The notes beneath the pieces are model-generated. The model saw only the letters and a list, made by a program, of their open reading frames with translations, was not told the DNA's origin and ran no database searches. Source: Parafrankia irregularis (GTDB taxonomy: Bacteria; Actinomycetota; Actinomycetes; Frankiales; Frankiaceae). From it: a stretch of DNA of 43,700 bases. The DNA is taken from the NCBI RefSeq assembly GCF_001536285.1, contig NZ_FAOZ01000048.1, forward strand, positions 1 through 43,700, given 5' to 3'. Positions 2,670 to 43,144 of this stretch are shown here, piece by piece (the stretch's first letter is position 1; each line of letters starts with the position of its first letter). A program made the position numbers and the translations under genes.

Positions 2670-4291
2670 CCCGGCTTGGCGAGCTGCAGGCCGCGGCCGC
2701 GCCGTGGACGCGGCGGCCGGCGCCGCTGGTGCACACCGACGATCAGGCGGACCTGGCGGTCTGGGAGCAGATCGCCGACGAGTGCACCGCGCTGGGCGAC
2801 GTCGACACCGCGCTGACCGCCCGGTTCGGCATCCCCGGGGTGGCGCGGGATCTGTGGCTGGCCGCCTACGCCCGCAGCCCGCAGCTGCTCGACGCCGGCG
2901 AGGTGGAGGACGCCCGCCGGCCGGCGCGGGCGATCCTGGCCGCCCAGCTGGGCAGCCCGGAACACCGCGACCTGCGCCGGCTGTCGACCGGGGACCCGTA
3001 CCTGGCGGCGATGGCCGTGCTGGCGCAGGCCGCCGTGGTCCGGGCAATGATCGAGAAGCTGGATAAGGCCCCGCAGGGCACGGCGGGGCAGCGGGCACGG
3101 GCGAAGCTGCGCCAAGCCCGCCGGGAGGAGACCGCCACCGCGGCGGCGCTGCGCCGGGCACTCGACGCCGCCGCCGACAGCGTCGACGGGGACCCCGACG
3201 GTGAGGTGGACCAGCCCCAGGTCGTCGATGTGCAGCGTGCGATCGCCGACGCTGACGGTGCGGCGGCGGACGCGGCCGCCGCCGCCCAGGCCGCGCAGGA
3301 AGCGGACGCCGGGGAGGACAGTGACGGCCTGGACGGTGCCCGGGTCCGGGCCGCCGCCCGGGCCGCGGCCGCCCAGGCGGAGACCGAGCTGGTCGCGCAG
3401 GCCGCGGCGGCGACCCGGTGGGGGGTGGAACCCGGCCAGCTCGAACGACTGGACGCCAATGAGCGGATGCGCCTGGCGAGGAAGCTGCGCAGCGGGAAAC
3501 TCGCCGAGTTCGCGCAGCTCATCGGCCGGTTCCGGCAGATGGCCACCGCGCAGCGATCCCGCCGGGTCGAACACGCCAAAGGCGAGTACGTCGGCGTGAC
3601 GTTGGGCGACGACCTGGCCAGCCTGGTCCCCGACGAGCTGGTGGCCCTCGCCGTACCGGCGCTGCGGGCGCAGTTCGCGATCCGCTACGCCGACCGGCAG
3701 CTGATGGTCTACGACCAGCGCGGTGTCGAACACGACGCCCAGGGTGCGATCATCGCCGTGATCGACTGCTCGGTTTCGATGACCAACGACGACGCCCACG
3801 GCATCACCGGGGAGGCCTACGCCAAGGCCCTCGCGCTCGCGCTGCTGGACTCCGCCCGCGCCGCCACCCCACCCCGCGCGTTCGCCGCCGTCCTGTTCTC
3901 CACCGAGCCGTGCGAGCCGATCGTGTTCCCCGCCGACCGGCCGGTGGACCTGGCCGACCAGATCCAGCTCGCCGAGCTGTTCCCCGGCGGCGGCACCGTG
4001 TTCCCCCCGGCGTTGGACGCCGCGGCCGAGCTGCTGGACGCCGAGTTCAACGCCACCGGCCGCGGACGGGCCGACATTGTGATCATCACCGACGGGGCCG
4101 CGGAGCTGCACCCCACCTGGATCGCCTCCTGGAAGCAGCGCCGGCACCGGCTCGGGTTTCGGGTGTTCGCGGTCACCGTCGGGGACTGGGCCGACGACCC
4201 CGCCGACCTCGACGCGATCTGCGACGACGTCCGCCGCATCGAGGACCTCCACGACACCCACGCCACCGCCGACCTGTTCCGCACCATCTGA
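2666..4291 (+). CDS. VWA-domain protein, MoxR partner (ViaA-like)
   Basis: A 541-residue protein. The N-terminal two thirds are helical and Ala-rich, with a long Ala/Asp/Glu segment at about 160-260. The C-terminal third is a von Willebrand A domain with a complete MIDAS metal site: DCSVS (Asp367, Ser369, Ser371), Thr444 in GGGT, and Asp476 in ITDG. This order, helical domain then C-terminal VWA, is that of ViaA-like partners of MoxR/RavA. It starts at GTG 2666 inside the stop of the moxR gene, so the two are translationally coupled. It probably forms a metal-dependent client-recruiting complex with the ATPase; the client cannot be read from sequence. Confidence 0.9.
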   Translation: MTRLGELQAAAAPWTRRPAPLVHTDDQADLAVWEQIADECTALGDVDTALTARFGIPGVARDLWLAAYARSPQLLDAGEVEDARRPARAILAAQLGSPEHRDLRRLSTGDPYLAAMAVLAQAAVVRAMIEKLDKAPQGTAGQRARAKLRQARREETATAAALRRALDAAADSVDGDPDGEVDQPQVVDVQRAIADADGAAADAAAAAQAAQEADAGEDSDGLDGARVRAAARAAAAQAETELVAQAAAATRWGVEPGQLERLDANERMRLARKLRSGKLAEFAQLIGRFRQMATAQRSRRVEHAKGEYVGVTLGDDLASLVPDELVALAVPALRAQFAIRYADRQLMVYDQRGVEHDAQGAIIAVIDCSVSMTNDDAHGITGEAYAKALALALLDSARAATPPRAFAAVLFSTEPCEPIVFPADRPVDLADQIQLAELFPGGGTVFPPALDAAAELLDAEFNATGRGRADIVIITDGAAELHPTWIASWKQRRHRLGFRVFAVTVGDWADDPADLDAICDDVRRIEDLHDTHATADLFRTI

Positions 4292-4339
4292 CCAGCCCGT
4301 CCGGCCCCGCACACCCCATCACGTCCGAGGAGGACTGAC

Positions 4340-4969
4340 ATGACCCTGACCACCAGCCTGGACCTGCCCACCAGCCCGCAGGTGCCGATCGGGCACACCG
4401 CCGACGGGCAGCTGCTCACCGTCGACGGGCGGATCCTGCTCGCCGGCGACGCCGGCACCGGCAAGACCGTCCTGGCCGCCCGCATCACCGCAGCCGACAC
4501 GGCCCGCTGGGTCATCCACGACCGCCACCGCGACCGCACCTACCCCGTCGCGGACTGGCGGACCACCTACCCCGCCGGGGCCACCAAGATGCTCGACACC
4601 GCCTGGTGGCTCGCGCAGACCCCCGACCAGCCGCGGGGCTCCCGCATCCGGCTCACCATCGACGACACCTACCTGCTCGACACCCTCACCCATCCGGTCC
4701 TGGGCGGCACCACCCCCGAGGACCTGGCCATGGTCGACGCCGCCGGCATCGACGTGACCTTCGTCGTCACCCAGCCCGACCCGCCACGTCAGCTCCTCGA
4801 CTCCTTCCCCACCCAGGTCCTGTTCCGCCACCGCGGCCGCTGCCCGTGGCCCGACCTCGCCGACACCCTGTCCGGTCTGCCCGACCACACCGCTCTGCTC
4901 GTCCGCCCCACCACCGCCCCGATCGTCGTCACGATCCCCGCCGAGTCCCTCCTCACCTGGCAGGCCTGA
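4340..4969 (+). CDS. P-loop ATP-binding protein
   Basis: A 209-residue protein with Walker A GDAGTGKT at residues 36-43 and a Walker-B-like hydrophobic strand ending in Asp-Asp (RLTIDDTYLL, about 109-118). It is short for an AAA domain and resembles stand-alone nucleotide-binding proteins that read or gate a larger machine. The ribosome site GAGGAGG is 7 nt before ATG 4340. It is the third gene of the MoxR-VWA operon, 48 bp after the VWA gene. A strong hairpin (4979-5013) follows, so most transcripts may end here. Its specific role is unassigned. Confidence 0.82.
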   Translation: MTLTTSLDLPTSPQVPIGHTADGQLLTVDGRILLAGDAGTGKTVLAARITAADTARWVIHDRHRDRTYPVADWRTTYPAGATKMLDTAWWLAQTPDQPRGSRIRLTIDDTYLLDTLTHPVLGGTTPEDLAMVDAAGIDVTFVVTQPDPPRQLLDSFPTQVLFRHRGRCPWPDLADTLSGLPDHTALLVRPTTAPIVVTIPAESLLTWQA

Positions 4970-5050: not shown

Positions 5051-6130
5051 GTGACCACGCCGACCTCCGAACCGCCCGACCTCACCACCAGCAACGCCGA
5101 CCTGAACCGCTACCTGGCCGCCACCGCCGGCGGCCAGGACGGCGAGGGGCTGCTGGGCCATCTGGTCATCTACAACGTCACCGACGTGGAGCAATGCGGC
5201 GAGACCGAGCTGCGGGAGTGGTTCACCGAGCTCGGACTGGACGTCGGGTTCCTGCCGGGCCCGCCGCGCCAGGACGCCGCGTTCGAGAAGGCCACGTCCG
5301 CGGCGAAGGCGCGATACGCCCCCGACGGGCACCGCGGCCGCGCCCACGCCAGCCAGGGCCGCACCGTCACCCTGATGATGCGCAACGTGGCCCGCGATGA
5401 GGCCCGGGTCGTACGCCACCTCGTGCGCGAGCTCGCCGACCACGGCGACGAAGCCCTCTCTTACGAGGTCCGGGTCGCCACCGCCGAGTTCGTCCGCGCC
5501 ACCGACCCGAGCCTGCCCGAGGGCTCCGGGACGATGACACTGGCCACCGACCAGGACACCGTCGACACGTTCGACCCCGCCGAACGCGACACCATCAACG
5601 AGCTGATCATGCGGGTGGCGGAGGACTACCGGACCCGCAGCCAGTACGTCTCCGCCGACCGGCTCCGCAAGATGCTCCGCGACTACGTCGAACGTGTGCT
5701 CGCCGCGGTGCGGATCCACCCCGGGGTGTACTTCGTGCACCGCCGCCACGCCGCCGCGCTCGCCGACCTACGGACCCTCGCCGCCCGCTTCGGCGCCGAA
5801 CTCACCCGCGTCCCCCTCGCCGACGCCACCGAGACGCGCAGCATGGTCGACGGCGCGTTCGCCGCCAAAGCCCAGGCCGACCTCGAATCGTTGGCCCGTG
5901 ACATCGCCCGGGTCCAGGCCGACGGCCCCAAGCCGTACCAGGTCCGACTGCTCCACCAGCGCTACACCGCCGTCAAGCAGGCGGCCGAGCAGTACCAGGC
6001 CGACCTCGACACCCACCTCACCACCACCGACGCGACCCTCGGGCTCATCCAGGCCCAGATGGCCACTCTCATGATCAGCGCCGCCGACACCGAGACCACC
6101 CCGGCCGACCAGCTCCAGGAGCAGCCGTGA
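5051..6130 (+). CDS. Unknown 359-aa protein of the MoxR-VWA cluster
   Basis: A 359-residue soluble protein without a motif I can name with certainty; it resembles uncharacterised families found on actinobacterial plasmids and phages. The middle is charged and helical (about 165-235). The C-terminal third contains Ala/Gln-rich helices that may form a coiled coil, and it ends in an acidic, Pro-containing tail. The start is GTG 5051, preceded at 6 nt by GGGAG; an upstream in-frame GTG at 5024 lies inside operator site B and is rejected. Its stop overlaps the next start (GTGA, 6127-6130). Confidence 0.8.
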   Translation: MTTPTSEPPDLTTSNADLNRYLAATAGGQDGEGLLGHLVIYNVTDVEQCGETELREWFTELGLDVGFLPGPPRQDAAFEKATSAAKARYAPDGHRGRAHASQGRTVTLMMRNVARDEARVVRHLVRELADHGDEALSYEVRVATAEFVRATDPSLPEGSGTMTLATDQDTVDTFDPAERDTINELIMRVAEDYRTRSQYVSADRLRKMLRDYVERVLAAVRIHPGVYFVHRRHAAALADLRTLAARFGAELTRVPLADATETRSMVDGAFAAKAQADLESLARDIARVQADGPKPYQVRLLHQRYTAVKQAAEQYQADLDTHLTTTDATLGLIQAQMATLMISAADTETTPADQLQEQP

Positions 6131-6504
6131 CCCCCGACGCCCCGCCCGCTGTGCACCCCCACCACGTCGTGGTCGCCGGCCGCCGCCGGCGGTGGCCGGT
6201 CTGCGCGTTCCACGCCGGCGACTGGGAGGCGAACCCGATGAGCGGCCTCGCCGGCACCGACCGGATCGACGGGCTGTGTGGCCAGCCGATCCGCTACGAG
6301 ATCGTCTACACCGACGGCTCCCGCGCCGGCCTGTGTGCACCCCACACCGCCCACGTCCGCGCCTGCGCCGACTGCGGCGGGCCGGCCCTCACCACGGTCC
6401 GCGACGCCACCGACCTGACCACCCGCCCAGACCCGAGGAGAAGCCGCTCATGGCCAGGACCGCGAGCTGCAGGCCTCCCCGACCCGGACGACTCCGACCA
6501 CTGA
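6127..6504 (+). CDS. Small Cys-rich, probable zinc-binding protein
   Basis: A 125-residue protein with Cys residues at VCAFHAGDW, LCGQP, LCAPH and ACADCGG. The CxxC and paired Cys/His suggest one or two zinc ribbons. The C-terminal 25 residues are Arg/Pro/Asp-rich. The GTG start overlaps the previous stop, so it is coupled to the 359-aa protein. The strong bidirectional terminator at 6511 ends the cluster. Function unknown; zinc ribbons in such clusters often bind DNA or a partner protein. Confidence 0.75.
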   Translation: MTPDAPPAVHPHHVVVAGRRRRWPVCAFHAGDWEANPMSGLAGTDRIDGLCGQPIRYEIVYTDGSRAGLCAPHTAHVRACADCGGPALTTVRDATDLTTRPDPRRSRSWPGPRAAGLPDPDDSDH

Positions 6505-6510
6505 TCCTGG

Positions 6511-6564
6511 TCACGCTGGGCCGCCCGTCCCGTGCCGATACACGGGACGGGCGGCCCAGCGTGA
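6511..6564. terminator. Very strong bidirectional terminator
   Basis: Perfect 24-bp arms (6511-6534 and 6541-6564) with a 6-nt loop lie between two converging genes (stop at 6504 on plus, stop at 6580 on minus). It can stop transcription from both sides and marks the end of the MoxR-VWA cluster. Confidence 0.92.
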
Positions 6565-6579
6565 CGCATGTACGGAGTA

Positions 6580-6891
6580 CTACCGGTTACGGCTGGCGCT
6601 CCGGATCGTGATCGTGACCGTGACCTCTTCGATGTGCTCGCCACCGACCCGCTGGGTCGGTGGCGAGTGGACGGGCCTCCGGGGGGCGGGGATGTGGGCA
6701 CGCTTGGCCCTATTGCGTCGTTTTTCCACCCACGCGACGAGGATCCCGCGGCCCAGCTCGACGAGCAGCGCCGTGAGCGGGACGACGAAACCGTCCGTCA
6801 CGACAAGGTAGGTCGCGACAGCAGCCAGTACTGTCAGCGACGAGATGCGGGTCCACCACCGTCTAGGAGGACCCGTCTGGTCATCGTGCAT
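6580..6891 (-). CDS. Small single-span membrane protein
   Basis: A 103-residue protein with a hydrophobic segment (LTVLAAVATYLVVTDGFVV and on) at about residues 18-50, then a basic linker KRRNRAKR and a cytoplasmic tail rich in Val/Thr/Ile. The start ATG 6891 has GGAGAAG 4 nt upstream. Basic residues on both sides make topology uncertain. No family recognised. Confidence 0.65.
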   Translation of the reverse strand: MHDDQTGPPRRWWTRISSLTVLAAVATYLVVTDGFVVPLTALLVELGRGILVAWVEKRRNRAKRAHIPAPRRPVHSPPTQRVGGEHIEEVTVTITIRSASRNR

Positions 6892-7904
6892 GGTGCTTCT
6901 CCCTAAACACTCTTCCGGTCTTCTTCCCCGTACTGGTTGCGCCCGAGGACACCCAGGACGCAACCAGCCGGGCCTACCCAGGGGACTGCGCGTTACTTGT
7001 GCCCTTCGGTCGCTCTCTCCTTCCCCTCATACGAGAGAACGGAGCGCAACGAGCGGCCTGACGGACAGTCCACACTCTACCGGCCCACCGCGTGGAAGCC
7101 GATTCGCAAAGTTTTCCGGAGAATGCACAAACTAACCTGTTATTGGAAATGAAAATCTAGCAGATTAGCACAGTCGGTGCGTCGATGCAAGAACCTGCGA
7201 CGGCGTGTCGCGTAAAATTTGAAGAGCTTTCACGTTGCTTCGGTTAAATGAGAACAACCGTGCTATAGGAGAGCTCTAGGGTTGGCCGCACCATTATGGT
7301 TGAGACTCTATATAGCAAACAAGGGTTCGTGAGAGCTTTGTAAAACCGGCTCGCGGTTGCTATCCTCTACCACTGAGAGGGGTGCTTCTCCCTCTCTGGG
7401 CTTCTCGGTACCCTACCCAGGGGCGAAGCCAAAGACCACGGCCCCCGGTCGCAACCTGGGGGCCGTGGCAGCCCTGGTGATCTTGCGTGAGCAGCTTGCT
7501 AGCGATCACCTCACAGGGTCGAACGGCTCCGCATCGGGGCCCGCCCCGCTACCAGAGCAAAAAACAACCAACGCTCAACCGTTGAGCAACGCTCGAACAA
7601 GAGCTGTGGCGTTATTCGCGGGATAGTTGGCCCCGCATGTGGCTCTTCCTGGGAACATCGGCGTGCGACCCCACCAAAGTGGGGGTCTTGGTGGGCCACC
7701 ATTTCTGATGATGAAATTTACGATAGCTATGGGAGTAACGCCCAATTCACGGGCGGAGGATAGATATCCATTCTGCTTTTAATTCCCGCCGCTAATGGCC
7801 GTGTCGGCATCGCTGTTTTCGCGGCCGGGAATTAGTGTCTACCCATTCCCGGAGTCGGCGAGAGGTGTAGTGGAAGAGGCCCCTTGGGGTGCTGGAACCA
7901 ATCG
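6892..7904. other. AT-richer intergenic stretch with hairpins
   Basis: About 1 kb with no convincing gene. From about 7085 to 7350 and 7690 to 7830 the base composition is visibly more AT-rich than anywhere else in the plasmid. Hairpins seen: CTGGTTGCG/CGCAACCAG (6933-6967), possibly a leader for the gene at 6891; an 11-bp-arm hairpin at 7436-7468; a GACCCCAC/GTGGGGGTC hairpin at 7669-7689; and long near-perfect arms TAATTCCCG...CGGGAATTA at 7779-7836. This may be imported or decayed DNA, or an unwinding region. Confidence 0.5.
7436..7468. terminator. Hairpin resembling an intrinsic terminator
   Basis: Perfect 11-bp arms (7436-7446, 7458-7468) with an 11-nt loop in an otherwise non-coding region. 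No intact gene ends near it, so it may belong to a lost gene or a non-coding transcript. Confidence 0.4.
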
Positions 7905-8396: not shown

Positions 8397-9062
8397 TCAC
8401 CGCGCGCCCGCCGGCGGGCGAATCTGGGTGCCGCGGTTGGCGAGCTCGGGCACGTGGGTGTACAGCGTGGACCGGCTCACGCCCAGCAGCCGCGCGATCG
8501 AGGAGACCGTGGCGTCCGGCTGGGCCAGCAGCGCGCGGGCGTGGTGGATCTGCTCGGTGGACAGGGCGGGTGGCCGGCCGAGGCGCTGCCCGCGGGCCCG
8601 CGCGGCGTCCAGGCCCTCGCGGGTGCCCTCCACGATCAGCTCCCGGATGAACTCCGCCAGCGCGGCGAAGACGTGGAACACCAGCCGACCGCCGGGGGTC
8701 GTCGTGTCCAGCGCCTCGTGCAGCGACCGGAACCCGACCCCGCGCCGGCGGAGCTCGGTGACCAGGGTGATCAGGTCCTGCAGGGACCGGGAGAGCCGGT
8801 CCAGGCTCGGGACCACCAGGACGTCCCCGGGACGTAGGTAGTCCAGGCACGCGGTCAGCTCGGGTCGGTCGGCGCTGCGACCGGACAGTTTGTCGGCGAA
8901 GACGCGGATGCAGCCGGCGTCGGCCAGGGCTCGGGTCTGGCGGTCCAGGTTCTGCCCGGCGGTCGACACCCGTGCGTAGCCGACGAGCGCGCCGGCGAGG
9001 GCGGGTTCAGGGGCGAGCGGGTCGTCCAGGCCCTCGAGTTCAGACCCACCGATCATCGTCAT
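8397..9062 (-). CDS. Serine recombinase (resolvase/invertase family)
   Basis: A 221-residue small serine recombinase. The catalytic motif is VGYARVSTAGQ with Ser33, followed by the conserved FADKLSG, PGDVLVVPSLDRLSRS and FHVFAALAEFIRELI segments, and a C-terminal helix-turn-helix (IARLLGVSRSTLYTHV). It is a paralogue of the transposon resolvase at 17171, with very similar spacing and motifs, but is not inside the Tn3 ends. The start is taken at ATG 9062, six bases before a second ATG (9056). Neither has a clear ribosome site, and the ORF could extend to 9122. Its recombination site is unknown; the 39-bp repeats nearby are candidates. Confidence 0.9.
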   Translation of the reverse strand: MTMIGGSELEGLDDPLAPEPALAGALVGYARVSTAGQNLDRQTRALADAGCIRVFADKLSGRSADRPELTACLDYLRPGDVLVVPSLDRLSRSLQDLITLVTELRRRGVGFRSLHEALDTTTPGGRLVFHVFAALAEFIRELIVEGTREGLDAARARGQRLGRPPALSTEQIHHARALLAQPDATVSSIARLLGVSRSTLYTHVPELANRGTQIRPPAGAR

Positions 9063-9171
9063 GATCGAAGTGTACGAAAAACGGTCCAAGAACCGTTGTC
9101 CGACACGGAGACTTTCTGACACGTTTTTCAGTCAAGAATCCGGACCGTGGCCGCATGGCGGCAAACTCATC

Positions 9172-12738: not shown

Positions 12739-15684
12739 GTGGCCCGGTCACTGGATCTCGATGAGCTCGTCGAGCATTGGATATTGGTGGATGACGAGCG
12801 GGAGCTGATCGCTGGCAAGCGTGGGCCGACGCGGCTCGGCTTCGCGGTGATGTTGAAGTTTTTCACGCAGATGGGTCGGTTCCCGCGGGGCCGCAGCGAG
12901 GTGCCGGACGAGGCTGTGGAGTACGTGGCCCGCCAAGTCGGTGTCGAACCGGGCGACATGGGCTTCTACGAGTGGACCGGCCGGACGATCAAGTACCACC
13001 GGGTGCAGATTCGTGAGCATCTGGGCTTCCGGGAGTGCTCGGTCGCCGACGCGGACCAGCTGGCCGAGTGGCTGGCCGGCCATGTGTGCGAGGCCGAGCG
13101 GCGCTCGGAGCTGGTCCGCGGCGAGCTGCTGGCGCGGTGCCGCGCTGAGCGGATCGAACCACCAGCCGCAGGCCGGATTGAGCGGATCGTGCGCTCGGCG
13201 CTGCATCAGGCGGAGCAGGCGCTGACTGCCCGGGTCGCCGGCCGGCTGTCCGTCGACGTCGCCGGCCGACTACGGGCGCTGGTCGCGGTCGATGTCCCGG
13301 ATGACGACACCGGTCAGGACTCGGTGCTGGCGCTGATCAAGTCGGTGCCTGGCAACGTCAGTCTGGACTCGATGCTCACCGAGATCCGTAAGCTGCGGGC
13401 GGTCCGCGCGGTCGAGCTGCCCGGCGGGCTGTTCGCGGATGTCGCCCCGCGGGTTGTGGCGTCTTGGCGGGCTCGCGCGGTGGTGGAGTCCCCGTCGCAC
13501 CTGCGTGACCATCCCGAGCCGCTGATGCTGGCGCTACTCGCGGCGTTGCTGCACCACCGGCTTCAGGAGATCACCGACACGCTCGTCGAGCTGCTGATCT
13601 CGACGGTGCACCGGATCGGCGCGCGGGCGGACAGGAAGGTCACCGACGAGCTGGTCAACGCGTTCAAGCGGGTGACTGGCAAGGAGAACATCCTGTTCGC
13701 GATCGCCGAGGCCTCGCTCGACAGCCCCGACGGGCAGGTCCGCGAGGTGGTGTTCCCGGCCGTGGCTGGCGGGGAGCAGACGCTGCGGGAGCTGGTGCAC
13801 GAGTTCAAGACCAAGGGGCCGGTGTACCGGCGCACCGTGCAGACCACGTTGAAGGCCTCCTACTCCAACCATTACCGGCGCGGGCTGATCGCGCTGCTCG
13901 GGGTGTTGGAGTTCCGGTCGAACAACGACACACATCGGCCGGTTCTCGACGCCCTCGACCTGATCCGTCGGTACGCCGACACCCGGCTGACCTACCTCCC
14001 GGCCGGCGAGTCCGTGCCGACCCACAAGGGGCTGCTCGGCGACTGGACGGAGCTGGTGTTCACCGACCCGGCCAAGGGCCCGAAGCGGGTCGTCCGCGGC
14101 GTGTATGAGATCTGCACCTTCCAGGCGCTGCGTGACAGTCTGCGGTGCAAGGAGATCTGGGTCGTCGGCGCGGAGAAGTGGCGCAACCCCGACGAGGACC
14201 TGCCGGCCGGATTCGAGGCCGACCGGGCCGGCCACTACGCCGCGCTGCGCAAGCCGCTGGACCCGACCGTGTTCATCGACCAGTTGCGTGAGGAGATGCG
14301 CGCCGAGCTGGCAGCGCTCGACCTCGCGGTGCCGAAGCTGCCCTGGCTGGAGATCGCCGAGCGGGGCAAGAACGGGCCGATCAAACTGAGCGACCTGGAT
14401 GCCGCGCCCGAGCCGCGCAACCTGCGCCGGCTGAAGGCCGAGGTGCGGTCCCGGTGGGGCACGGTGCCGCTGATCGACATGCTCAAGGAGGCGGTGCTGC
14501 GCACCGGCTGCCTCGCGGCCGCGACCACCGCGGCCGGCCGCGGTGACCTGCCCCCCAAGATCCTCGCCGAGCGGTTGATGCTCGCGATCTACGCCTACGG
14601 CACCAACACCGGCATCCGCGCGATCGCCGGCTCCGCGCAGAACGGCCACAGCGAGGACGACATCCGCTACGTCCGGCGCCGCTACCTGACCACCGAGCTC
14701 GCCCGCACGATCGCCATCGAGATCGCGAACGCCACCTTCGCCGCCCGCGAGCGGCAGGTCTGGGGCGCCGGTTCGACCGCCGTGGCCAGCGACTCGACGC
14801 ACTTCGGCGCGTTCGACCAGAACATCTTCACCGAGTGGCACTCCCGCTACGGCGGCCGCGGCGTGCTGATCTACTGGCACGTCGAGCGCAAGAGCATGGC
14901 CATCCACTCCCAGCTGCTCACCTGCTCGGCGTCCGAGGTCGCCGCCATGGTCGAAGGCGCGATGCGCCACGACACGGCGATGAAGGTCGAGGGCAACTAC
15001 GTCGACTCCCACGGCCAGTCCGAGATCGGCTTCGGCATCACCCGGCTCCTCGGCTTCGACCTGCTACCCCGCATCAAACGGATCAACAAGGTCCGCCTCT
15101 ATCGGCCCGCCGCCGGCGCACCCGACGCCTACCCCCAGCTCACGCCGGCGCTAACTCGGCCGATCCGCTGGGACCTGGTCGCCGAACAGTACGACCAGAT
15201 GATCAAATATGCGACCGCGATCCGGACCCGCACTGCCTCCGCCGAGGCAATCCTGCGCCGCTTCACCCGCACGAACGCGATCCACCCCACCTACCAGGCC
15301 ATGATCGAGGTCGGCCGAGCCCAGCGGACCCTGTTCGTCGCCCGCTACCTGCGCGACCGCGACCTGCAACGCGAGATCAACGAAGGCCTCAACGTCGTCG
15401 AGTCCTGGAACCGCGCCAACAGCGTCATCTTCTTCGGCAAGGGCGGCGACATCGCCACCAACCGCCGCGACGAACAAGAGCTGTCCGTGCTCTGCCTGCG
15501 GGTGCTGCAGGCCGCCCTGGTCTACGTCAACACGCTGATGGTCCAGGACGTCCTCGCCGACGACTGGACCGACCAGCTGACCGACGCCGACCGACGCGGC
15601 CTCACGCCCCTGTTCTGGACCCACGTCGCCCCGTACGGCGAGGTGAAGCTCGACATGACCAGCCGCCTGGTGCTCAGCGAGTGA
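12739..15684 (+). CDS. tnpA: Tn3-family transposase
   Basis: 981 residues, the usual Tn3 transposase length. The N-terminus has the family pattern LVDDERELIAGKRGPTRLGF followed by LKFF and GRFPRG. The C-terminal DDE catalytic core has Asp685 (ASDSTHFGAFDQN), Asp756 (YVDSHGQSE) and Glu888 (VVESWNRAN). It binds the terminal inverted repeats and carries out replicative transposition, leaving a cointegrate for TnpR to resolve. The start is GTG 12739. All catalytic residues are present, so it is predicted active. Confidence 0.97.
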   Translation: MARSLDLDELVEHWILVDDERELIAGKRGPTRLGFAVMLKFFTQMGRFPRGRSEVPDEAVEYVARQVGVEPGDMGFYEWTGRTIKYHRVQIREHLGFRECSVADADQLAEWLAGHVCEAERRSELVRGELLARCRAERIEPPAAGRIERIVRSALHQAEQALTARVAGRLSVDVAGRLRALVAVDVPDDDTGQDSVLALIKSVPGNVSLDSMLTEIRKLRAVRAVELPGGLFADVAPRVVASWRARAVVESPSHLRDHPEPLMLALLAALLHHRLQEITDTLVELLISTVHRIGARADRKVTDELVNAFKRVTGKENILFAIAEASLDSPDGQVREVVFPAVAGGEQTLRELVHEFKTKGPVYRRTVQTTLKASYSNHYRRGLIALLGVLEFRSNNDTHRPVLDALDLIRRYADTRLTYLPAGESVPTHKGLLGDWTELVFTDPAKGPKRVVRGVYEICTFQALRDSLRCKEIWVVGAEKWRNPDEDLPAGFEADRAGHYAALRKPLDPTVFIDQLREEMRAELAALDLAVPKLPWLEIAERGKNGPIKLSDLDAAPEPRNLRRLKAEVRSRWGTVPLIDMLKEAVLRTGCLAAATTAAGRGDLPPKILAERLMLAIYAYGTNTGIRAIAGSAQNGHSEDDIRYVRRRYLTTELARTIAIEIANATFAARERQVWGAGSTAVASDSTHFGAFDQNIFTEWHSRYGGRGVLIYWHVERKSMAIHSQLLTCSASEVAAMVEGAMRHDTAMKVEGNYVDSHGQSEIGFGITRLLGFDLLPRIKRINKVRLYRPAAGAPDAYPQLTPALTRPIRWDLVAEQYDQMIKYATAIRTRTASAEAILRRFTRTNAIHPTYQAMIEVGRAQRTLFVARYLRDRDLQREINEGLNVVESWNRANSVIFFGKGGDIATNRRDEQELSVLCLRVLQAALVYVNTLMVQDVLADDWTDQLTDADRRGLTPLFWTHVAPYGEVKLDMTSRLVLSE

Positions 15685-17934: not shown

Positions 17935-18315
17935 TCACGGAGTGAGATCCAACAGGCGCACCGGCTGGCCCACCCACCGGTCCGGCGCCGCCGTCGCGAT
18001 CACCGCACCCTCGGGACGCTCCGGGGTGGGCTCGGCCGCGTACCGGACATGCGCCGGCGCCCAGCCCTCATCACGGGCCACCGCGAGCGCGGCCGCCAGG
18101 TCCAGCTCCACGATCGTCACCGCAGGCAGCGCGGCGATGTGCTCGGCGGTCCCCGGCCTGGCCCGGTCCGCCTCCACCAGCGCACACGCCGGCGCGTACA
18201 GGAAATGCCCCGGCTCGGTGTGGGCGAGGTGAATCAGCTCGGAGGCCAACCTGTTGCCGTGCCCGGCCGAGACCATCGCGGTGTCATCCAGCACCACGTG
18301 CAGCGCGGCGCTCAC
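17935..18315 (-). CDS. PIN-domain-like toxin
   Basis: A 126-residue PIN-like protein. Acidic positions are at LDDTAM near the start, LVEADR in the middle and VELD further on. This resembles actinobacterial VapC-type proteins, which are Mg-dependent RNases. The classical final acidic patch is less clear, so activity is probable but not certain. The start GTG 18315 overlaps the antitoxin stop (GTGA), the usual antitoxin-first coupling. Confidence 0.78.
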   Translation of the reverse strand: MSAALHVVLDDTAMVSAGHGNRLASELIHLAHTEPGHFLYAPACALVEADRARPGTAEHIAALPAVTIVELDLAAALAVARDEGWAPAHVRYAAEPTPERPEGAVIATAAPDRWVGQPVRLLDLTP

Positions 18316-18569
18316 CGCCCCAGCGCCCGCGCCAGCCGACGGTCCAGCTCCGCCCGGGCCTGCGCGGCCTCCTCCTCCGTCGGGTCGTAGCCGCTCCACT
18401 CCCGCAGCACCACCCGCGCCCGCTCGGCACGCTCCGCACGTTCCGCCGGCGTCAGCAGCGTGCTCGCCAACCGGGCCAGATACGCCCGCAACGACAACCC
18501 CTCCGCTGCCGCCACCTCCGCCAGCCGATCCCGCGCCTCCGCCGGAATCCGCACATTCGCATCCGCCAC
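18312..18569 (-). CDS. Ribbon-helix-helix antitoxin
   Basis: About 85 residues. The N-terminal DNA-binding part is DANVRIPAEARDRLAEVAAA then EGLSLRAYLARLAST, a ribbon-helix-helix. The C-terminal acidic, Ala-rich helix (DPTEEEAAQARAELDRR) would wrap the toxin. The start is ambiguous among GTG 18569, 18572 and 18590; 18569 lies 5 nt after AGGAGG and is preferred. The palindrome at 18601 is its probable autoregulatory operator. Confidence 0.82.
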   Translation of the reverse strand: MADANVRIPAEARDRLAEVAAAEGLSLRAYLARLASTLLTPAERAERAERARVVLREWSGYDPTEEEAAQARAELDRRLARALGR

Positions 18570-18600
18570 CACGGCCTCCTCCCGATCCACTCCCCCGCAG

Positions 18601-18628
18601 GATACGGGTACGCGGACGTACCCGTATC
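18601..18628 (-). promoter_or_regulatory. Toxin-antitoxin operator
   Basis: GATACGGGTACG-CGGA-CGTACCCGTATC has perfect 12-bp arms, 30-60 bp before the antitoxin start. On the minus strand TATCCT at its end makes a plausible -10. Ribbon-helix-helix antitoxins bind such operators together with their toxin. Confidence 0.8.
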
Positions 18629-18637
18629 GGATCTCGG

Positions 18638-19039
18638 CTACCCGGCGGCGGCCGCGCTGCCGGGCGCCGGCAGCCAGGTGAGATGGAGGCGAGTAGGCGA
18701 CGCGGCCAGCCAGATCAGGGTTGCAGAACTCTCCTCCACGCGTCCCCGGCGCAGGCCCGGGATACCGCAGAGCTCTCCCTCAAAAACGGCTGGCATCAGA
18801 TAGTCGATGACGGCGGCAACCGTAGGACCGCCTGCCCACTCGAGACGGACCGTGTCCCCTACGCCGATCCATCCGTGAGTCCAGTCGGCCTTGGCGAGGA
18901 AGGTACCGAGCCCGTCAACAACCAGCCCCAGCAGTACAGCTGCCAGGTTGCCACGCCCGCACTTCCACTTGCTCGCCTCCAGCTCCGTCATGCAATCGCC
19001 AGCGATCACGGCAAGGGCAGGAAGCTCGACTTCGGTCAC
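18638..19039 (-). CDS. Hypothetical protein beside the partition locus
   Basis: A 133-residue protein starting at GTG 19039 (GAGG 8 nt upstream); ATG 18991 is an alternative. It is mixed alpha/beta in appearance, with segments such as NLAAVLLGLVVDGLGTFL, VGDTVRLEWAGGPTVAAVI and ATLIWLAASPTRLHLTWLP, and no transmembrane segment that is clearly long enough. It is divergent from parA. No family recognised. Confidence 0.55.
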   Translation of the reverse strand: MTEVELPALAVIAGDCMTELEASKWKCGRGNLAAVLLGLVVDGLGTFLAKADWTHGWIGVGDTVRLEWAGGPTVAAVIDYLMPAVFEGELCGIPGLRRGRVEESSATLIWLAASPTRLHLTWLPAPGSAAAAG

Positions 19040-19140
19040 TCCGACATCCTCGGTTCGACCGGTGCGCTGGTCATCGGTACGGCGCGCCGAAGGACCATCG
19101 CCAGGCCACGGCGAAGCCCGCCCTGGCGAGCAGAATTTTC

Positions 19141-19169
19141 GCTTGCGGATATGCAAGCAAGATGCTTGC
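19141..19169. promoter_or_regulatory. Alternating GCTTGC/GCAAGC hexamers upstream of parA
   Basis: GCTTGC (19141), GCAAGC (19153) and GCTTGC (19164) alternate in orientation with 6- and 5-bp gaps, in a short AT-richer patch 60 bp before parA. The position and form suit a par operator or part of the centromere. Confidence 0.5.
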
Positions 19170-19231
19170 CGCCGTGCTGGCCATGGCGCCAGACTCTGGC
19201 CAGACGATGTCCGGGTGGAGCAAGTAGGGAG

Positions 19232-20032
19232 ATGGCGTTGACGACGGTGGCGGTCTATAGCGAGAAGGGCGGCGTCGGGAAGACGGCGCTGGCGTCCGGG
19301 CTGGTGGCGGCTGCGGCCGCGCGTGGGATGCGGGTCCTAGCCGTCGATCTGGACCCGCGGCACACGCTGACGGATGAGCTCGGCGTCGACAGCCCGGCGT
19401 ACTCCGTCAACGACCTCCTGTTCATCGACCCCAACGACCCGGACCCGGCTGACGCGGCCGAGCTGGTTCAGGACGCCCTCTCCCCCGCCGGCGAAGCATG
19501 GCCAGATCTGGTGCGGGTCTTGGCCGCCGAGCGGGCTCTGTCCCACCGGGAGGTCGACGCCACCATCGGCCTCGAGCACCGGCTCGCCCGCGCCGTGCGA
19601 GGAGTCATCGACGTGGACCTGGTCGTCATCGACGTTCCCCCGCGAGCCGGCGGCCGGCTCGCGGGGGCTGCGCTGGTCACCGCAAACGTGGTGGTGATCC
19701 CCGCGACCCTGACCCTCGATGGGTACATCGGGGCCGGCGAGGCGATGACGACGGTCCGACACATCCAACGCGGCCCGAACCCCGATCTGCAGGTGGCGGG
19801 GATCGTACGGAGCATCACGCCTCGGCCGGTCCGGCAGATCCACCAAGAGTTGGACCGTCAACTCGCCGAGACCTACCCCGATCTGCTTCTCGACGCACGC
19901 ATCCCGCACTACGCGGTACGTGAGGAGGCCCGCACCGCGTCGGTGCCCATCACGAGCGCACCGGGCCGCGAGGCCCGGACCTTGGCATCCGCATACGGCT
20001 CTGTGCTCGACATCGTGATCAAGGGGGACTGA
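19232..20032 (+). CDS. parA: ParA-family partition ATPase
   Basis: A 266-residue ParA/MinD-type Walker ATPase. The deviant Walker A is SEKGGVGKT (residues 10-18) with the signature Lys. VLAVDLDPRHTLTDELG forms the A' motif, DLVVIDVPPRAG is Walker B, and a strand with NVVVIPATLTLDGYIGAGEA follows. It lacks the N-terminal helix-turn-helix of long ParA, so repression is probably done by the next gene. Start: ATG 19232 abuts the GGGAG site, and TTG 19238 would give better spacing. The stop overlaps the next ATG (TGATG). Confidence 0.93.
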   Translation: MALTTVAVYSEKGGVGKTALASGLVAAAAARGMRVLAVDLDPRHTLTDELGVDSPAYSVNDLLFIDPNDPDPADAAELVQDALSPAGEAWPDLVRVLAAERALSHREVDATIGLEHRLARAVRGVIDVDLVVIDVPPRAGGRLAGAALVTANVVVIPATLTLDGYIGAGEAMTTVRHIQRGPNPDLQVAGIVRSITPRPVRQIHQELDRQLAETYPDLLLDARIPHYAVREEARTASVPITSAPGREARTLASAYGSVLDIVIKGD

Positions 20033-27677: not shown

Positions 27678-27707
27678 CGGCCCACCCCGATCCGTCGGGG
27701 TGGGCCG
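27678..27707 (+). terminator. Hairpin before traB
   Basis: CGGCCCACCCCGA and its exact complement (13-bp arms, 4-nt loop), 22 bp after a stop codon and 54 bp before the TraB start. It could reduce read-through into the translocase gene. Confidence 0.75.
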
Positions 27708-27760
27708 TGCGGAGACCGCCGGACCCCACCACCGCCCCGTCCGAGGAGAGGAGAGCCGCT

Positions 27761-30250
27761 GTGACGGCCACCAGCACCAGCACACGCCGGACCCGGTCCG
27801 CGCCGACCCCGGCGGCGATCCTCGCCGCGGCCGCCGCGACCGGCGACGCCGACACCGCCGCGGCGATGGTCGGCGCGGCGATCGACGCGGACACCGCCGC
27901 CCGGGCCGCGGCCCGGCTGGAGGCCGACACCGCCCGCGCCCAGAACGACCCGCTGGTCATGCGCCTGGTCAACGGCGCCGCCGAGGCCACCGCGAAGGCC
28001 CGCGCCGCGGCGGCGGCCGCCGCCGACGACCCGGACCGCGCCGCCGAGCTGCACGCCGTCGCCGACGCCCACCAGCGCCGCGCGGTCGCGCTACGCGCCG
28101 CGGCGCACGAGGCGTTGCACCGCCGCCGCGGCCGGGTGCTCCGCGTCCGCGCGCAGGCCGCCCCGTTCGCCGTGATCGGCCTGCTGTGGGCGGCCGCGGC
28201 CGCCGGCCAGATGGTCCCGAACGGCGGCTACACCCTGTCCGGGATCTACTTCGCCCTCGCGGTCGTGTGGTGGTGGGCCCGGGGCCGCACCGCCGGCTGG
28301 GCCGACCGGGCCCGGCGCTACCGGTACACCGTCCTGGTCACCACCGCCGGCGCCACCTGGACCGTCTGGGCGTGCATGACCGGCCCCGGCGGGTGGCGCG
28401 CCGCGGTGCTGTGGGCCGGCGGCTACGCCCTGGCCGCCCCCTACTGGAACCGGGTCCGGATCCCCGACCCGCCCGCCGAGATCCCCGCCCCGCCGGTCGA
28501 GGAGGAGACCCCGCCGGCACCGGTCGAGGTGGAAGACCAGCGGCCTCTGGTCGTGCAGCTGTGGGACGCCTGGATCGGCGGCCCCGGCGGGCTGTTCGAA
28601 GGCGCCGAACTGACCGGCCGCCAGGAGATCGCCCACGGGGAGAAGTACCTCGCCGTGCTGAACCGGGCCGCCGGCCAGAACCGCCTCATCCTGCAGGCCC
28701 GCGCCTACCAGGTCGCCGGCCGGATGGGCATGGCCCAGGGCCAGATCGACGTCGAGACCCATCCCGATGGGGAGCACCTGGCCTGGGTCACCTTCACCCT
28801 GGACCGCGGCGGCGCGATGGGCTCCCTGGACTACCCCGGCCCGCAGGCCTGCTACGACCCCGACACCGGCCTGATCCACTGGGGTCGCTGGCCCGACGGG
28901 CAGCTCATGCCCTGGGAAGCCATGCACCTCAAGCGCGGCGCCTACTCCGGAGTCCTGTTCGGCGCCTCCGGATCCGGCAAGAGCCGGCTGATCGAACAGC
29001 TGTGCCTCACGCTGCTGTCCACCGGCCTGGCCACCGTCTGGATGATCGACCCCCAGGACGGGTCCTCGCTGCCCACCCTGGCGAAGTACGCCGACTGGGC
29101 GGTCACCGGCACCGGCGGCGGGCGGATCACCGCGCTGCTCGAAGCCGTCGACATGGTCGGCGCCATCCGCACCGAGAACAACGGCCTGGTCGGCGGTGAC
29201 CGCGGCAAGGTCCACGCGATCTCCCCGCGGATGCCCGCCCTCTTCGTGATCATCGACGAATGTCACATGATCTTCGATCCGAAGATCGTCGGCAGGGAGA
29301 ACGCCGCCCGCAATGCGGAGATCGTCGACCGGATCGCCCGCGCCTACCGCAAGGCCGGCATCGGCGTGATCTTGGCCTCGCAGTACTCCGACATCAAGGT
29401 GTTCGGGGGCCTGGAGTCCATGCGCCTGAACATGATCAACGTCAACGCGGTCGTGATGCGCCTGCCCAGCAACATCGGCCAGAACATCATCGCCACGTTC
29501 TCCGGGGACGCCCGCAAGCTGCCCAAGGGCGGGTTCGCCTACTACGTCGGCGACGCCGCCGCCGGCCGGGACGGCTTCGGCCGCGCGTTCGACGCCGAAC
29601 CGGTGCTCGAGTCCTACTACCAGGCCCTGCCGGCACCGCTGCAGGTCGAGGCCTCCGTCCGCCACCAGCTGGAGAAGAAGTTCGGCAAGGTCTACACCGG
29701 CCGTCACGCCGCGGTGGAGGAAGCCGCCGCCGAAAGCCTCGCCGCCCGGTTCGGCGGGTTCGAGGTCGACCCGGCGCTGCTTGCCGAGATCGCCGCGGAC
29801 GACCCCGCCCTCGCCGCCCGCATGGCCACCATCGCCCAGCAGCGCCAGGGGCAGCTGTGGACCCCACCGGCCGCGCAGCTGCTCGACGCCACCGGCGCCC
29901 CGGTCCGCACGCCAGCGCAGCGCACCACCACCACCGGCACCACCCTGCGCACCGTCTGGCAGCCGCTCATCGGCAAACCCCGCCAGCAGCCCACACCGCC
30001 GCCGGCCGCCGTCCCGGCCCCGGCCGCGACCCGCACCCACGCGACCGCCGATCTGTCCCCCCACGCCCAGGCCGTCCTGGGCGCCATCCGCGACGGCGCC
30101 GCCGACAAGGCCTCCGTCATCGCCGCCACCGGCGTCTCCGCCCGCCACTTCCACGACGTCGTCGCGGTCCTCATCGACCGAGGCCTGATCGCCAAAGCCG
30201 GCCACGGCCGCTACGCCCCCACCACACGGCCCACCGTGGCCACCCACTGA
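27761..30250 (+). CDS. traB: TraB/FtsK-like conjugative DNA translocase
   Basis: A 829-residue septal translocase. The N-terminal Ala-rich helical part is followed by hydrophobic spans at about 127-145, 160-172 and 186-225. The FtsK-type motor has Walker A GASGSGKS (401-408), a MIDPQDGSSL strand, and Walker B VIIDECH (Asp499-Glu500). The C-terminal 60 residues (LSPHAQAVLGAIRDGAADKA then VIAATGVSARHFHDVVAVLI) form a winged helix like the gamma domain that reads clt repeats. In actinobacteria this single protein moves double-stranded plasmid DNA between cells. GTG 27761 has GAGGAGAGGAG upstream; an open frame to 27707 is ignored. Confidence 0.93.
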   Translation: MTATSTSTRRTRSAPTPAAILAAAAATGDADTAAAMVGAAIDADTAARAAARLEADTARAQNDPLVMRLVNGAAEATAKARAAAAAAADDPDRAAELHAVADAHQRRAVALRAAAHEALHRRRGRVLRVRAQAAPFAVIGLLWAAAAAGQMVPNGGYTLSGIYFALAVVWWWARGRTAGWADRARRYRYTVLVTTAGATWTVWACMTGPGGWRAAVLWAGGYALAAPYWNRVRIPDPPAEIPAPPVEEETPPAPVEVEDQRPLVVQLWDAWIGGPGGLFEGAELTGRQEIAHGEKYLAVLNRAAGQNRLILQARAYQVAGRMGMAQGQIDVETHPDGEHLAWVTFTLDRGGAMGSLDYPGPQACYDPDTGLIHWGRWPDGQLMPWEAMHLKRGAYSGVLFGASGSGKSRLIEQLCLTLLSTGLATVWMIDPQDGSSLPTLAKYADWAVTGTGGGRITALLEAVDMVGAIRTENNGLVGGDRGKVHAISPRMPALFVIIDECHMIFDPKIVGRENAARNAEIVDRIARAYRKAGIGVILASQYSDIKVFGGLESMRLNMINVNAVVMRLPSNIGQNIIATFSGDARKLPKGGFAYYVGDAAAGRDGFGRAFDAEPVLESYYQALPAPLQVEASVRHQLEKKFGKVYTGRHAAVEEAAAESLAARFGGFEVDPALLAEIAADDPALAARMATIAQQRQGQLWTPPAAQLLDATGAPVRTPAQRTTTTGTTLRTVWQPLIGKPRQQPTPPPAAVPAPAATRTHATADLSPHAQAVLGAIRDGAADKASVIAATGVSARHFHDVVAVLIDRGLIAKAGHGRYAPTTRPTVATH

Positions 30251-41976: not shown

Positions 41977-42478
41977 GGCGTCATACCCGCGCGGTTTTTG
42001 TGGGTGGCGTGCGGTATGCAAGAGGCGTCTCCTAGTCGAGGCGAGCCCCGGCGACGTCGACCACTCCGCCAAGAGATAACGATCGGCGTCGCCGGGAGGG
42101 AACCCTTCCCGGATCAAGGGATATCGCAGGGGTCCGACACATCCGCACCCCACCCGTAGCGGGCGGTGCCTGGAATCTCTCCCTCCGTGGCCAACTGGAG
42201 TCACCTGGTGGCCGCCGAGTCGGTTTCCTCAACTCCAGCCCACCGTGTCCCGGGAAGTGTGGCGTAGATCACGGGCAGGGTGGGCCGGCGAGGACGAGTT
42301 CGGCCTGGCCGGTGGCCAACGAGAGGGCGGACGGGAGTTCTCCGTGGGGCCGGCGCGGGAACGCGCCGAACCTGAGGGCGACTGGTGGCTCGGGTGCACG
42401 CCGCCACGACCCTTCCCGCGCTTCCTCGCGGCGGGAAGGGTGGGAAATCGGTTGTCGTGGGTGGGAAGTTTTGTCCCA
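41977..42478. other. Intergenic region before the duplicated modules
   Basis: About 500 bp with no gene I would support. The open frame at 42245-42487 ends inside repeats and has no ribosome site. Contains the hairpin CCCTTCCCGC/GCGGGAAGGG (42410-42440) and the G-rich repeats GGGTGGGAA (42439, 42460) leading to GTCCCACCC. Confidence 0.5.
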
Positions 42479-42697
42479 CCCATGTAGGGATCGCGCGAAG
42501 ATGGCCACTCCGAGCTGGCAGGTCACGGTAGTTGGCCATCGCCGGTGCGCCGGCGACCGGCGGTGTTGGCCAGCGCTGGCGGTGCCAGCGCGATGCACAG
42601 CGGGGCCCTGACCAGCGGATTGGCCAAGTAGACCGAGTTCTGGCCACGCAGTGGCCAAGTAGCGCGGCGAGTGGCCAGGTAGATCCGATCCCTACAA
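42479..42697. repeat. Repeat module U1 with seven TGGCCA hexamers
   Basis: Begins CCCATGTAGGGATCG and ends ATCCCTACAA. TGGCCA starts at 42502, 42533, 42567, 42621, 42641, 42652 and 42672. Several copies are extended to TGGCCAAGTA. It contains no TGGCGA or TCGCCA. The shared framework with U2 includes GCTGGCAG/GCTGGCGG, TGCACAGCGGG and TGACCAGCGG. Confidence 0.9.
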
Positions 42698-42928
42698 CCC
42701 ATGTAGGGATCGGCCGGAGATGGCGAGCCCGTGCTGGCAGTTCTCGTTGTTGGCGAGCGCCGCGCGGGCGGGCATCGGGCCTGTTGGCGAGCGCTGGCAC
42801 CGCCAGCAGGTGCACAGCGGGAGGATCGCAGGGCCGTGACCAGCGGTTCGCCAAGTAGGCCGCGTCGCTCGCCATCCACGCGCCAACTGCGGTGGCGACT
42901 CGCCATCTTCCCGCGATCCCTACAACCC
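42698..42928. repeat. Repeat module U2 with seven TGGCGA/TCGCCA hexamers
   Basis: Begins with the same CCCATGTAGGGATCG and ends ATCCCTACAACCCA. TGGCGA starts at 42721, 42751, 42785 and 42893; TCGCCA at 42848, 42869 and 42900. It contains no TGGCCA. Sites line up in order with those of U1, including TCGCCAAGTA opposite TGGCCAAGTA. Confidence 0.9.
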
Positions 42929-43144
42929 ACGGGTCCACCCACCGGCCCGCTCACCAGACCCCCCACCGGCCCGCCCGTAAAGGTGGGCGGGTGGGCCGTG
43001 GGTGCCCAGCGGCTGGTCAACGCGGACGCGGGACCCACCCGAGCACTCCGTGACATAAGGACCGGCACGGTCTCGCTGTCATCGTCGGCGCTGCCGTGTC
43101 CAGCCCCGCCGGGGCTCGTGTGTCAGATCAGCGTCAGATCACTG
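42929..43144. other. Intergenic region after the duplicated modules
   Basis: About 215 bp without a gene. A hairpin GCCCGCCC/GGGCGGGT region lies at 42970-42995, and a direct repeat GTCAGATCA at 43123 and 43132 lies next to the stop of the 43145 gene. Nothing else identified. Confidence 0.5.

Follow-up and report, generated by a model that had tools for sequence, protein, structure and literature searches.

Two adjoining units, very probably Tn7-like miniature transposons, differ at one base of all seven repeated sites in Parafrankia irregularis

Near the end of the window (the whole stretch of 43,700 nucleotides from Parafrankia irregularis that was analysed), two similar units, U1 and U2, stand side by side. 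U1 contains TGGCCA seven times and neither TGGCGA nor TCGCCA; U2 contains seven TGGCGA or TCGCCA strings and no TGGCCA. What kind of element carries these sites, and why have they changed together? In a preliminary description, whose counts we reproduced, the pair was regarded as a locally duplicated module, an origin, centromere or incompatibility determinant. Our analysis indicates that U1 and U2 are very probably two miniature non-autonomous Tn7-like transposons (MITEs), apparently inserted in succession at one target.

Ends and site arrays of U1 and U2

Tn7 possesses TGT...ACA termini, generates a 5-bp duplication and places its right end toward the target at a fixed distance. TnsA and TnsB cut the ends of Tn7, and TnsC with a target selector places the element beside the target. 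As described in an excerpt of PMC8649781, Tn7 has three TnsB sites at the left end and four at the right end. The same layout is found in U1 and U2 (Table 1): each has three left and four right inward-facing putative TnsB sites. Both units start with TGTAGGGATCG and end with CGATCCCTACA, and these TGT...ACA termini include terminal inverted repeats. The order is ACCCA-U1-ACCCA-U2-ACCCA, with a perfect 5-bp target duplication on each unit. In U1, the inward TGGCCA sites are located 20, 51 and 85 bp from the left terminus and 20, 40, 51 and 71 bp from the right terminus. In U2, the left-end TGGCGA sites are located at 20, 50 and 84 bp; at the right end, the sites at 20, 51 and 72 bp are TGGCGA and that at 40 bp is TGGCGC. 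The spacings of 31, 20, 11 and 20 bp correspond closely to whole turns of the helix, and that of 34 bp does so less well. The central part of both units is short and without genes. The features of MITEs are present: a length below 500 bp, no transposase gene, inverted termini and multiple dispersed copies.

Table 1. Positions of the two units, their putative TnsB sites, the target duplications and the putative target unit in the window
Feature	Positions	Strand	Remark
Target-site duplication ACCCA (5 bp), left of U1	42478..42482	.	identical to 42697-42701 and 42925-42929
U1, very probable solo non-autonomous Tn7-like element (MITE), TGGCCA type, 214 bp	42483..42696	+	left end to right end
U1 left site L1, TGGCCA	42502..42507	+	
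U1 left site L2, TGGCCA	42533..42538	+	
U1 left site L3, TGGCCA	42567..42572	+	
U1 right site R4, TGGCCA	42621..42626	-	
U1 right site R3, TGGCCA	42641..42646	-	
U1 right site R2, TGGCCA	42652..42657	-	
U1 right site R1, TGGCCA	42672..42677	-	
Target-site duplication ACCCA (5 bp), common to U1 and U2	42697..42701	.	
U2, very probable solo non-autonomous Tn7-like element (MITE), TGGCGA type, 223 bp	42702..42924	+	
U2 left site L1, TGGCGA	42721..42726	+	
U2 left site L2, TGGCGA	42751..42756	+	
U2 left site L3, TGGCGA	42785..42790	+	
U2 right site R4, TGGCGA	42848..42853	-	
U2 right site R3, TGGCGA	42869..42874	-	
U2 right site R2, TGGCGC	42880..42885	-	sole deviating U2 site
U2 extra TGGCGA in spacer	42893..42898	+	opposite orientation; no homologous U1 site
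U2 right site R1, TGGCGA	42900..42905	-	
Target-site duplication ACCCA (5 bp), right of U2	42925..42929	.	
Putative target unit, outer limits approximate	42940..43058	+	cytosine-rich repeats, CCCGTAAA, core ending ACCCACCCGAGCACTCCGTGACATAA

U1 and U2 were compared by global alignment, and 15 gap columns were excluded from the counts. The fifth base of the inward hexamer is C in U1 and G in U2 at all seven homologous sites. The remaining hexamer bases differ at one of 35 positions and the terminal bases at none of 22. In contrast, 46 of the 147 other compared bases (31%) differ. Thus, the hexamers are more concerted than the background. The boundaries and internal landmarks that the preliminary description had reported as shared are seen in the alignment, although its unit limits (219 and 231 bp) had included parts of the ACCCA duplications. 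Its matching order of sites applies to six of the seven homologous sites, which read TGGCGA inward in U2; the seventh string (42893-42898) is the extra, non-homologous copy. The hexamer had been called directional; in fact, the arms are inverted, and the homologous sites face inward as TGGCGA on the left side of the unit and as TCGCCA on its right side.

Selection for one DNA-binding domain would agree with the near-helical register of the seven sites and with their identical change. We infer that the hexamer change tracks a different TnsB, and the set-wise change probably reflects a different transposase moving each unit. In this respect, the earlier idea of a protein-binding array whose sites changed together, toward a new specificity or for two proteins, still appears likely from the sequences. 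The two types are not mixed within one module at the homologous sites, decayed single sites excepted; this comparison covered the solo elements U1, U2, L068, L071b and, in part, C60, which were aligned, and L071a, which was printed beside them. At L180, a TGGCGA-like left end faces a TGGCCA right end. Because the flanking words at L180 match at only three of five positions, L180 is probably not one element.

Two further observations were made around the units. A central core, GCACAG..GGGCC.TGACCAGCGG, is kept across both site types (about 42580-42618 in U1 and about 42796-42846 in U2) and includes no recognised site. A stem-loop, GGGTGGGA-AGTTTTG-TCCCACCC, was read by eye at positions 42459-42481, overlapping the left ACCCA duplication.

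Relatives, cargo and transposase genes

Within its genus, U1 has relatives in five of the six genomes, its own genome included, and U2 has relatives in 17 of 35 family genomes; the matches include short ones. A search for TGTAGGGATCG-N(5-20)-TGGC gave 43 places, distributed over 22 of the 35 family genomes, and the reversed-pattern control gave 2. When a stricter pattern was used in a scan of named genomes, 31 stretches were obtained: 20 come from records of Frankia, Parafrankia or Pseudofrankia, and the other 11 are from unrelated organisms, with a single match in each. The TGGCCA type is represented, besides U1, by L068, L071a and a decayed copy on contig C60, and the TGGCGA type, besides U2, by L071b and L072, both decayed. 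Thus, each type is also found on its own, dispersed in other family genomes, and the pair is not the local duplication proposed earlier. By alignment or by eye, the central core is common to U1, L068, L071a, C60, U2, L071b and L072. Therefore, the two site types probably arose within one MITE lineage before it spread to several genomes.

The site geometry (20/51/85 and 20/40/51/71) is identical in U1 and L068, and L062, L064, L065 and L066 retain most of the U1-type site positions. Among the 19 end pairs listed as complete, 10 have perfect 5-bp duplications; the other nine are L071b, L064a, L064b, L063 (four of five bases), L177a, L177b, L061, L185 and L180. At L064, the two outermost flanking words agree (GTCAC), which suggests that this pair moved as one unit. 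The second element of L064 is also present alone in L190, where it is flanked by GGGCG duplications and differs at 10 of 831 bp.

U1, U2 and L068 are only 214-223 bp, and other relatives carry genes. Pfam searches revealed a bleomycin-resistance-like/glyoxalase gene in L065, an AHSA1-type gene in L066, Glyoxalase_6 and SnoaL_4 in L064, MarR and an NAD(P)H-binding protein in L063, a PemK-like gene with an adjoining ORF without a match in L062, and a methyltransferase in L061; in L067, Pfam named no clear gene. L062-L067 are Tn7-like-ended cassettes, mostly of one or two genes, and are reminiscent of gene cassettes. At L071 (G008, 5447-6951), an IS3-type element lies within the right end of a TGGCCA-type MITE. 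We considered IS3 as the mobilising transposase and rejected it: by eye, this element is nested in the MITE and has a 4-bp AGCT repeat of its own.

Transposase genes are present between such ends. In L061 (G008), TnsA (NCBIfam TnsA_like_Actin, 6.5e-72), a Mu-type TnsB, a TniB/AAA protein (TnsC) and TniQ are encoded between TGGCCA-type ends. This element is decayed: tnsB is split over two frames, tniQ is in pieces, and the flanking words mismatch. The genome of the window possesses its own 6746-bp Tn7-like element, which has the same sequence in C49, C50 and C60 and is interrupted by the contig ends; its flanks reveal two insertions, with the duplications GCTGA (C50/C49) and CCGAC (C54/C60). 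Its TnsA matches NCBIfam at 5.2e-64, and its TnsB, TnsC and TniQ comprise 733, 385 and 781 residues, respectively. The TnsB has 65% identity to the L061 TnsB and matches 7svw TnsB (2.8e-15) and 7pik Tn7 TnsB (3e-4) in the PDB. The termini, TGTAGGG...CCCTACA, are as in the family; the sites are TGTCCA, a hexamer type different from those of U1 and U2. It should be mentioned that the TniQ of this element bears a C-terminal LysR-type HTH domain.

The tnsA, tnsB, tnsC and tniQ genes are therefore found inside ends of the TGGCCA type (L061, decayed) and the TGTCCA type, but not of the TGGCGA type. Among the TnsB relatives in sets of 58, 35 and 393 genomes, neither a TGGCGA-type tnsB nor an intact TGGCCA-type tnsB was found. 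Matches were obtained in 14 of the 58 genomes at E 0.001, in 7 of the 35 at 1e-60 and in 12 of the 393 at 1e-100, where few candidates were scored per genome; in the 35 genomes, ends were sought by pattern and a part of the places found was read. In viral contigs, 31 stretches matched a pattern and none was confirmed as a TnsB relative.

Are distinct hexamers a general feature of these transposons? For the wider group, 23 tnsB loci were examined for ends. Fourteen right ends beginning with TGTAGG were picked by eye and compared at the fixed positions 20, 40 and 51; L159, a candidate without an array, was omitted from these 14 and added in a repeat test. The mean distance between hexamers within an end was 1.10, and that of shuffled sets was 3.35 (s.d. 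0.20), with none of 20000 as low. For 12 non-redundant right ends, the corresponding values were 1.28 and 3.54 (s.d. 0.23; 0/20000), and addition of L159 gave 1.59 versus 3.67 (0/20000). When the window of comparison was slid off the sites, the mean distance was 4.2-4.5. By a strict count of 13 ends including L159, the hexamers at 40 and 51 both have at most one mismatch to that at 20 in seven ends; one of the two fits in three (L167, L173 and L145) and neither in three (L159, L172 and L174, the last with its hexamers one base off). The cores by lineage, those of other actinobacterial relatives among them, include TGGCCA, TGGCGA, TGTCCA, TGTCCG, TGCGCA, TGTCGC, TGTCAT/C and TGGACA/TGGGCA, and they are located at near-equal distances behind the same TGTAGG terminus. 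Because the cores are alike within ends and different between lineages, the change between U1 and U2 is one case of a group-wide pattern.

Target unit and stacking of the elements

In the window, CCCGTAAA is located at 42974, 49 bp from the U2 terminus. In four sequences (the window, C60, L068 and L071), the right terminus is exactly 49 bp from CC(C/T)GTAAA of the conserved flank, and in two decayed or variant cases the distance to the target motif is 48 and 50 bp. However, C60, L068 and L071 have several neighbour genes in common and represent a single orthologous locus in three genomes; the number of separate loci with the 49-bp distance is therefore two and not four. At their right ends, C60, L068 and L071 have different flanking words, which favours, but does not prove, separate insertions at that locus. 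In L068, an older element ends 12 bp nearer, a shift by the length of one 12-bp repeat, and the distance of the newer element is once more 49 bp. Thus, a fixed distance and orientation to the target, as in Tn7, are observed at two separate loci.

The putative target unit is dispersed and about 100 bp long, with 12-bp ACCCCCCACCGG-like repeats followed by CCCGTAAAG..GGGTGGG..CACCCACCCAAGCACTCCGCGACTTAA; it is also seen at L195, L199, L206, L209 and other loci. Fifteen matches, the weakest of them doubtful, were obtained in 11 of the 35 family genomes. Of the three copies in G008, one is occupied, and the two others, L206 and L209, have no element end in the 70 bp upstream. The examined flanks of L062, L065 and L066 contain no target unit, and Rfam gave no match for five target-unit loci. 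A common neighbour gene of the target units was sought and rejected: among nine other loci, the window's included, only the gene of L196 and L198 recurs.

Neighbouring elements separated by exactly 5 bp are all arranged head to tail (6/6: the window, L061 with a remnant, L063, L064, L069 and L177), and the L074 junction of 7 bp has the same orientation. A target distance of 49 bp would explain this stacking and place U2 after U1; likewise, the right end facing the target suggests that U2 is the later insertion. At L177 (G029), two identical 371-bp TGTCCA-type MITEs (4015-4385 and 4391-4761) stand head to tail, 5 bp apart, and their outer duplications do not match.

We propose the following mechanism. 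An autonomous TnsABC-TniQ element would supply the TnsB that binds the hexamer-centred sites and pairs the left and right ends, and TnsA and TnsB, by homology to Tn7, would cut at the TGT/ACA ends. TniQ, to which we assign a putative role in target choice, would guide insertion together with TnsC, so that every element has the same orientation, 49 bp separate its right end from the target motif and 5 bp of the target are duplicated. U1 would have been inserted first, and U2 would then have entered the same ACCCA, adjoining the target. U1 and U2 would represent two subfamilies of one MITE lineage, in which the seven sites follow two TnsB specificities, TGGCCA and TGGCGA.

Target immunity is a trait of Tn7 according to an excerpt of PMC11406308. 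A broader scheme, which we consider doubtful, would be a Tn7-like cassette system with an end code in Frankiaceae: 3+4 elements, empty or with one or two genes, would be moved in trans by the TnsB that matches their hexamers and stacked head to tail at one target, and the seven-site switch would pass a MITE lineage on to another TnsB, so that it could settle next to an older copy which is immune for the old TnsB. The last step is weakened by neighbours of the same type, which are found at L063, L064 and L177, the L177 pair showing no differences. Because such neighbours exist, immunity escape is possible but not needed.

Other explanations and known systems

Could the hexamers be stems of a structured non-coding RNA or a single-stranded DNA hairpin, in which the change from TGGCCA to TGGCGA/TCGCCA is base-pair compensation between the arms? 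TGGCGA on the left can indeed pair with TCGCCA on the right, and U1 and U2 fold better than shuffled sequences (z -4.77 and -4.73). However, folding is just as good for the reverse strand of U1 (z -5.12), as expected of any inverted repeat, and the cargo-carrying relatives keep most site spacings with their arms 0.8-2.4 kb apart. The 5-bp duplications and dispersed copies are marks of a transposon, and Rfam at gathering scores gave no match in the window. After folds of U1 (both strands), U2 and the U1+U2 pair together with the Rfam search, structured RNA was rejected, and we judge it very improbable. A maintenance locus of a plasmid or ICE with two specificities (origin iterons, a partition site or an incompatibility array), as in the preliminary description, would agree with repeated sites in tandem and with the ParA-like, weakly FtsK-like and resolvase genes on the contig. 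Against this, the sites are inverted about each unit and are not one-direction iterons, the units recur elsewhere alone or around genes with target duplications, and U1 and U2 have no match at E 1e-3 in 72,556 plasmid records, a comparison that the preliminary description had suggested. Given the transposon termini and 5-bp duplications, with relatives that carry cargo or TnsABC/TniQ genes, this explanation is extremely improbable.

A closer alternative accepts the MITEs and supposes that TGGCGA drifted or was gene-converted and is used by the same TnsB as TGGCCA, with no change of specificity. The lack of a TGGCGA-type tnsB in the genomes searched and the central core common to U1 and U2 agree with this idea, and a lenient sequence requirement of TnsB sites is described in an excerpt of PMC10201428. 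On the other hand, the same base is changed at all seven sites while 34 of the 35 other hexamer bases are kept, TGGCGA ends are found in several genomes, and distinct TnsB lineages elsewhere repeat distinct cores. Moreover, the same excerpt reports that activity was lost in chimeric right ends of CASTs. A single cytidine, present in each of three sites, was the likely cause, also of the lost cross-mobilisation between two CASTs. We therefore regard a shared TnsB as unlikely, and prefer two MITE subfamilies with different TnsB specificities.

Like Tn7, the U1/U2 group has 3+4 sites, similar termini, a 5-bp duplication, a target-facing right end and, in the relatives, TnsA, TnsB, TnsC and TniQ genes. 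Unlike Tn7, U1 and U2 are gene-free, possess a lineage-specific hexamer core, occur as stacked solo copies and apparently use as target a dispersed repeat of about 100 bp instead of a single host gene. Mobile insertion cassettes, for example MIC231, carry genes between the ends of an autonomous element and are moved in trans. Integron gene cassettes are single-gene units that occur as head-to-tail neighbours. The Tn7-like family resembles the latter in its single-gene units and head-to-tail neighbours, but has Tn7-like ends and 5-bp duplications, and only two-unit arrays were seen. Like the bacterial MITEs treated in the excerpted review PMC10969869, U1 and U2 are short, have the ends of an autonomous element, would be moved in trans and show target duplications. 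They differ from other MITEs and mobile insertion cassettes in their parent, which is Tn7-like with seven-site ends; in the excerpt of that review, Tn7 appears solely as an example of targeting and within a reference. VchCAST and Tn7002 (PMC10201428, in excerpt) likewise have repeated TnsB sites, with a 10-bp period of site spacing in CASTs, and one repeated base can block a related TnsB. Integration there occurs 46-52 bp from the target according to that excerpt, as compared with 49 bp here. CASTs are guided by RNA, and VchCAST carries three sites at each end, as against three and four in U1 and U2. An Actinobacteria-dominated Tn7-like clade, with no experimentally characterised member, was described in 2021 according to the excerpt of PMC8649781, and the U1/U2 group probably belongs to it.

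Tn7-like transposons, MITEs and gene-carrying cassettes are already known kinds of element. In the openly licensed literature searched, we did not encounter solo MITEs of the Tn7-like kind that combine complete 3+4 arrays with a concerted switch of seven sites, an absence of little weight. Multi-site ends raise the question of how a transposase changes its specificity if seven sites must follow. Sites that are alike within an element and different between lineages form a natural panel, from which a TnsB recognition code may be read and tested. Our results also point to minimal natural mini-transposons of 214 bp and a likely dispersed target unit, and they may guide orthogonal insertion tools for actinomycetes.

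The contig of the window may be a plasmid or an integrated element. Genes for a Tn3-family transposase, a resolvase, a ParA-like protein and a weakly FtsK-like protein are located at positions 12739-15684, 8397-9122, 18254-20032 and 27707-30250, respectively.
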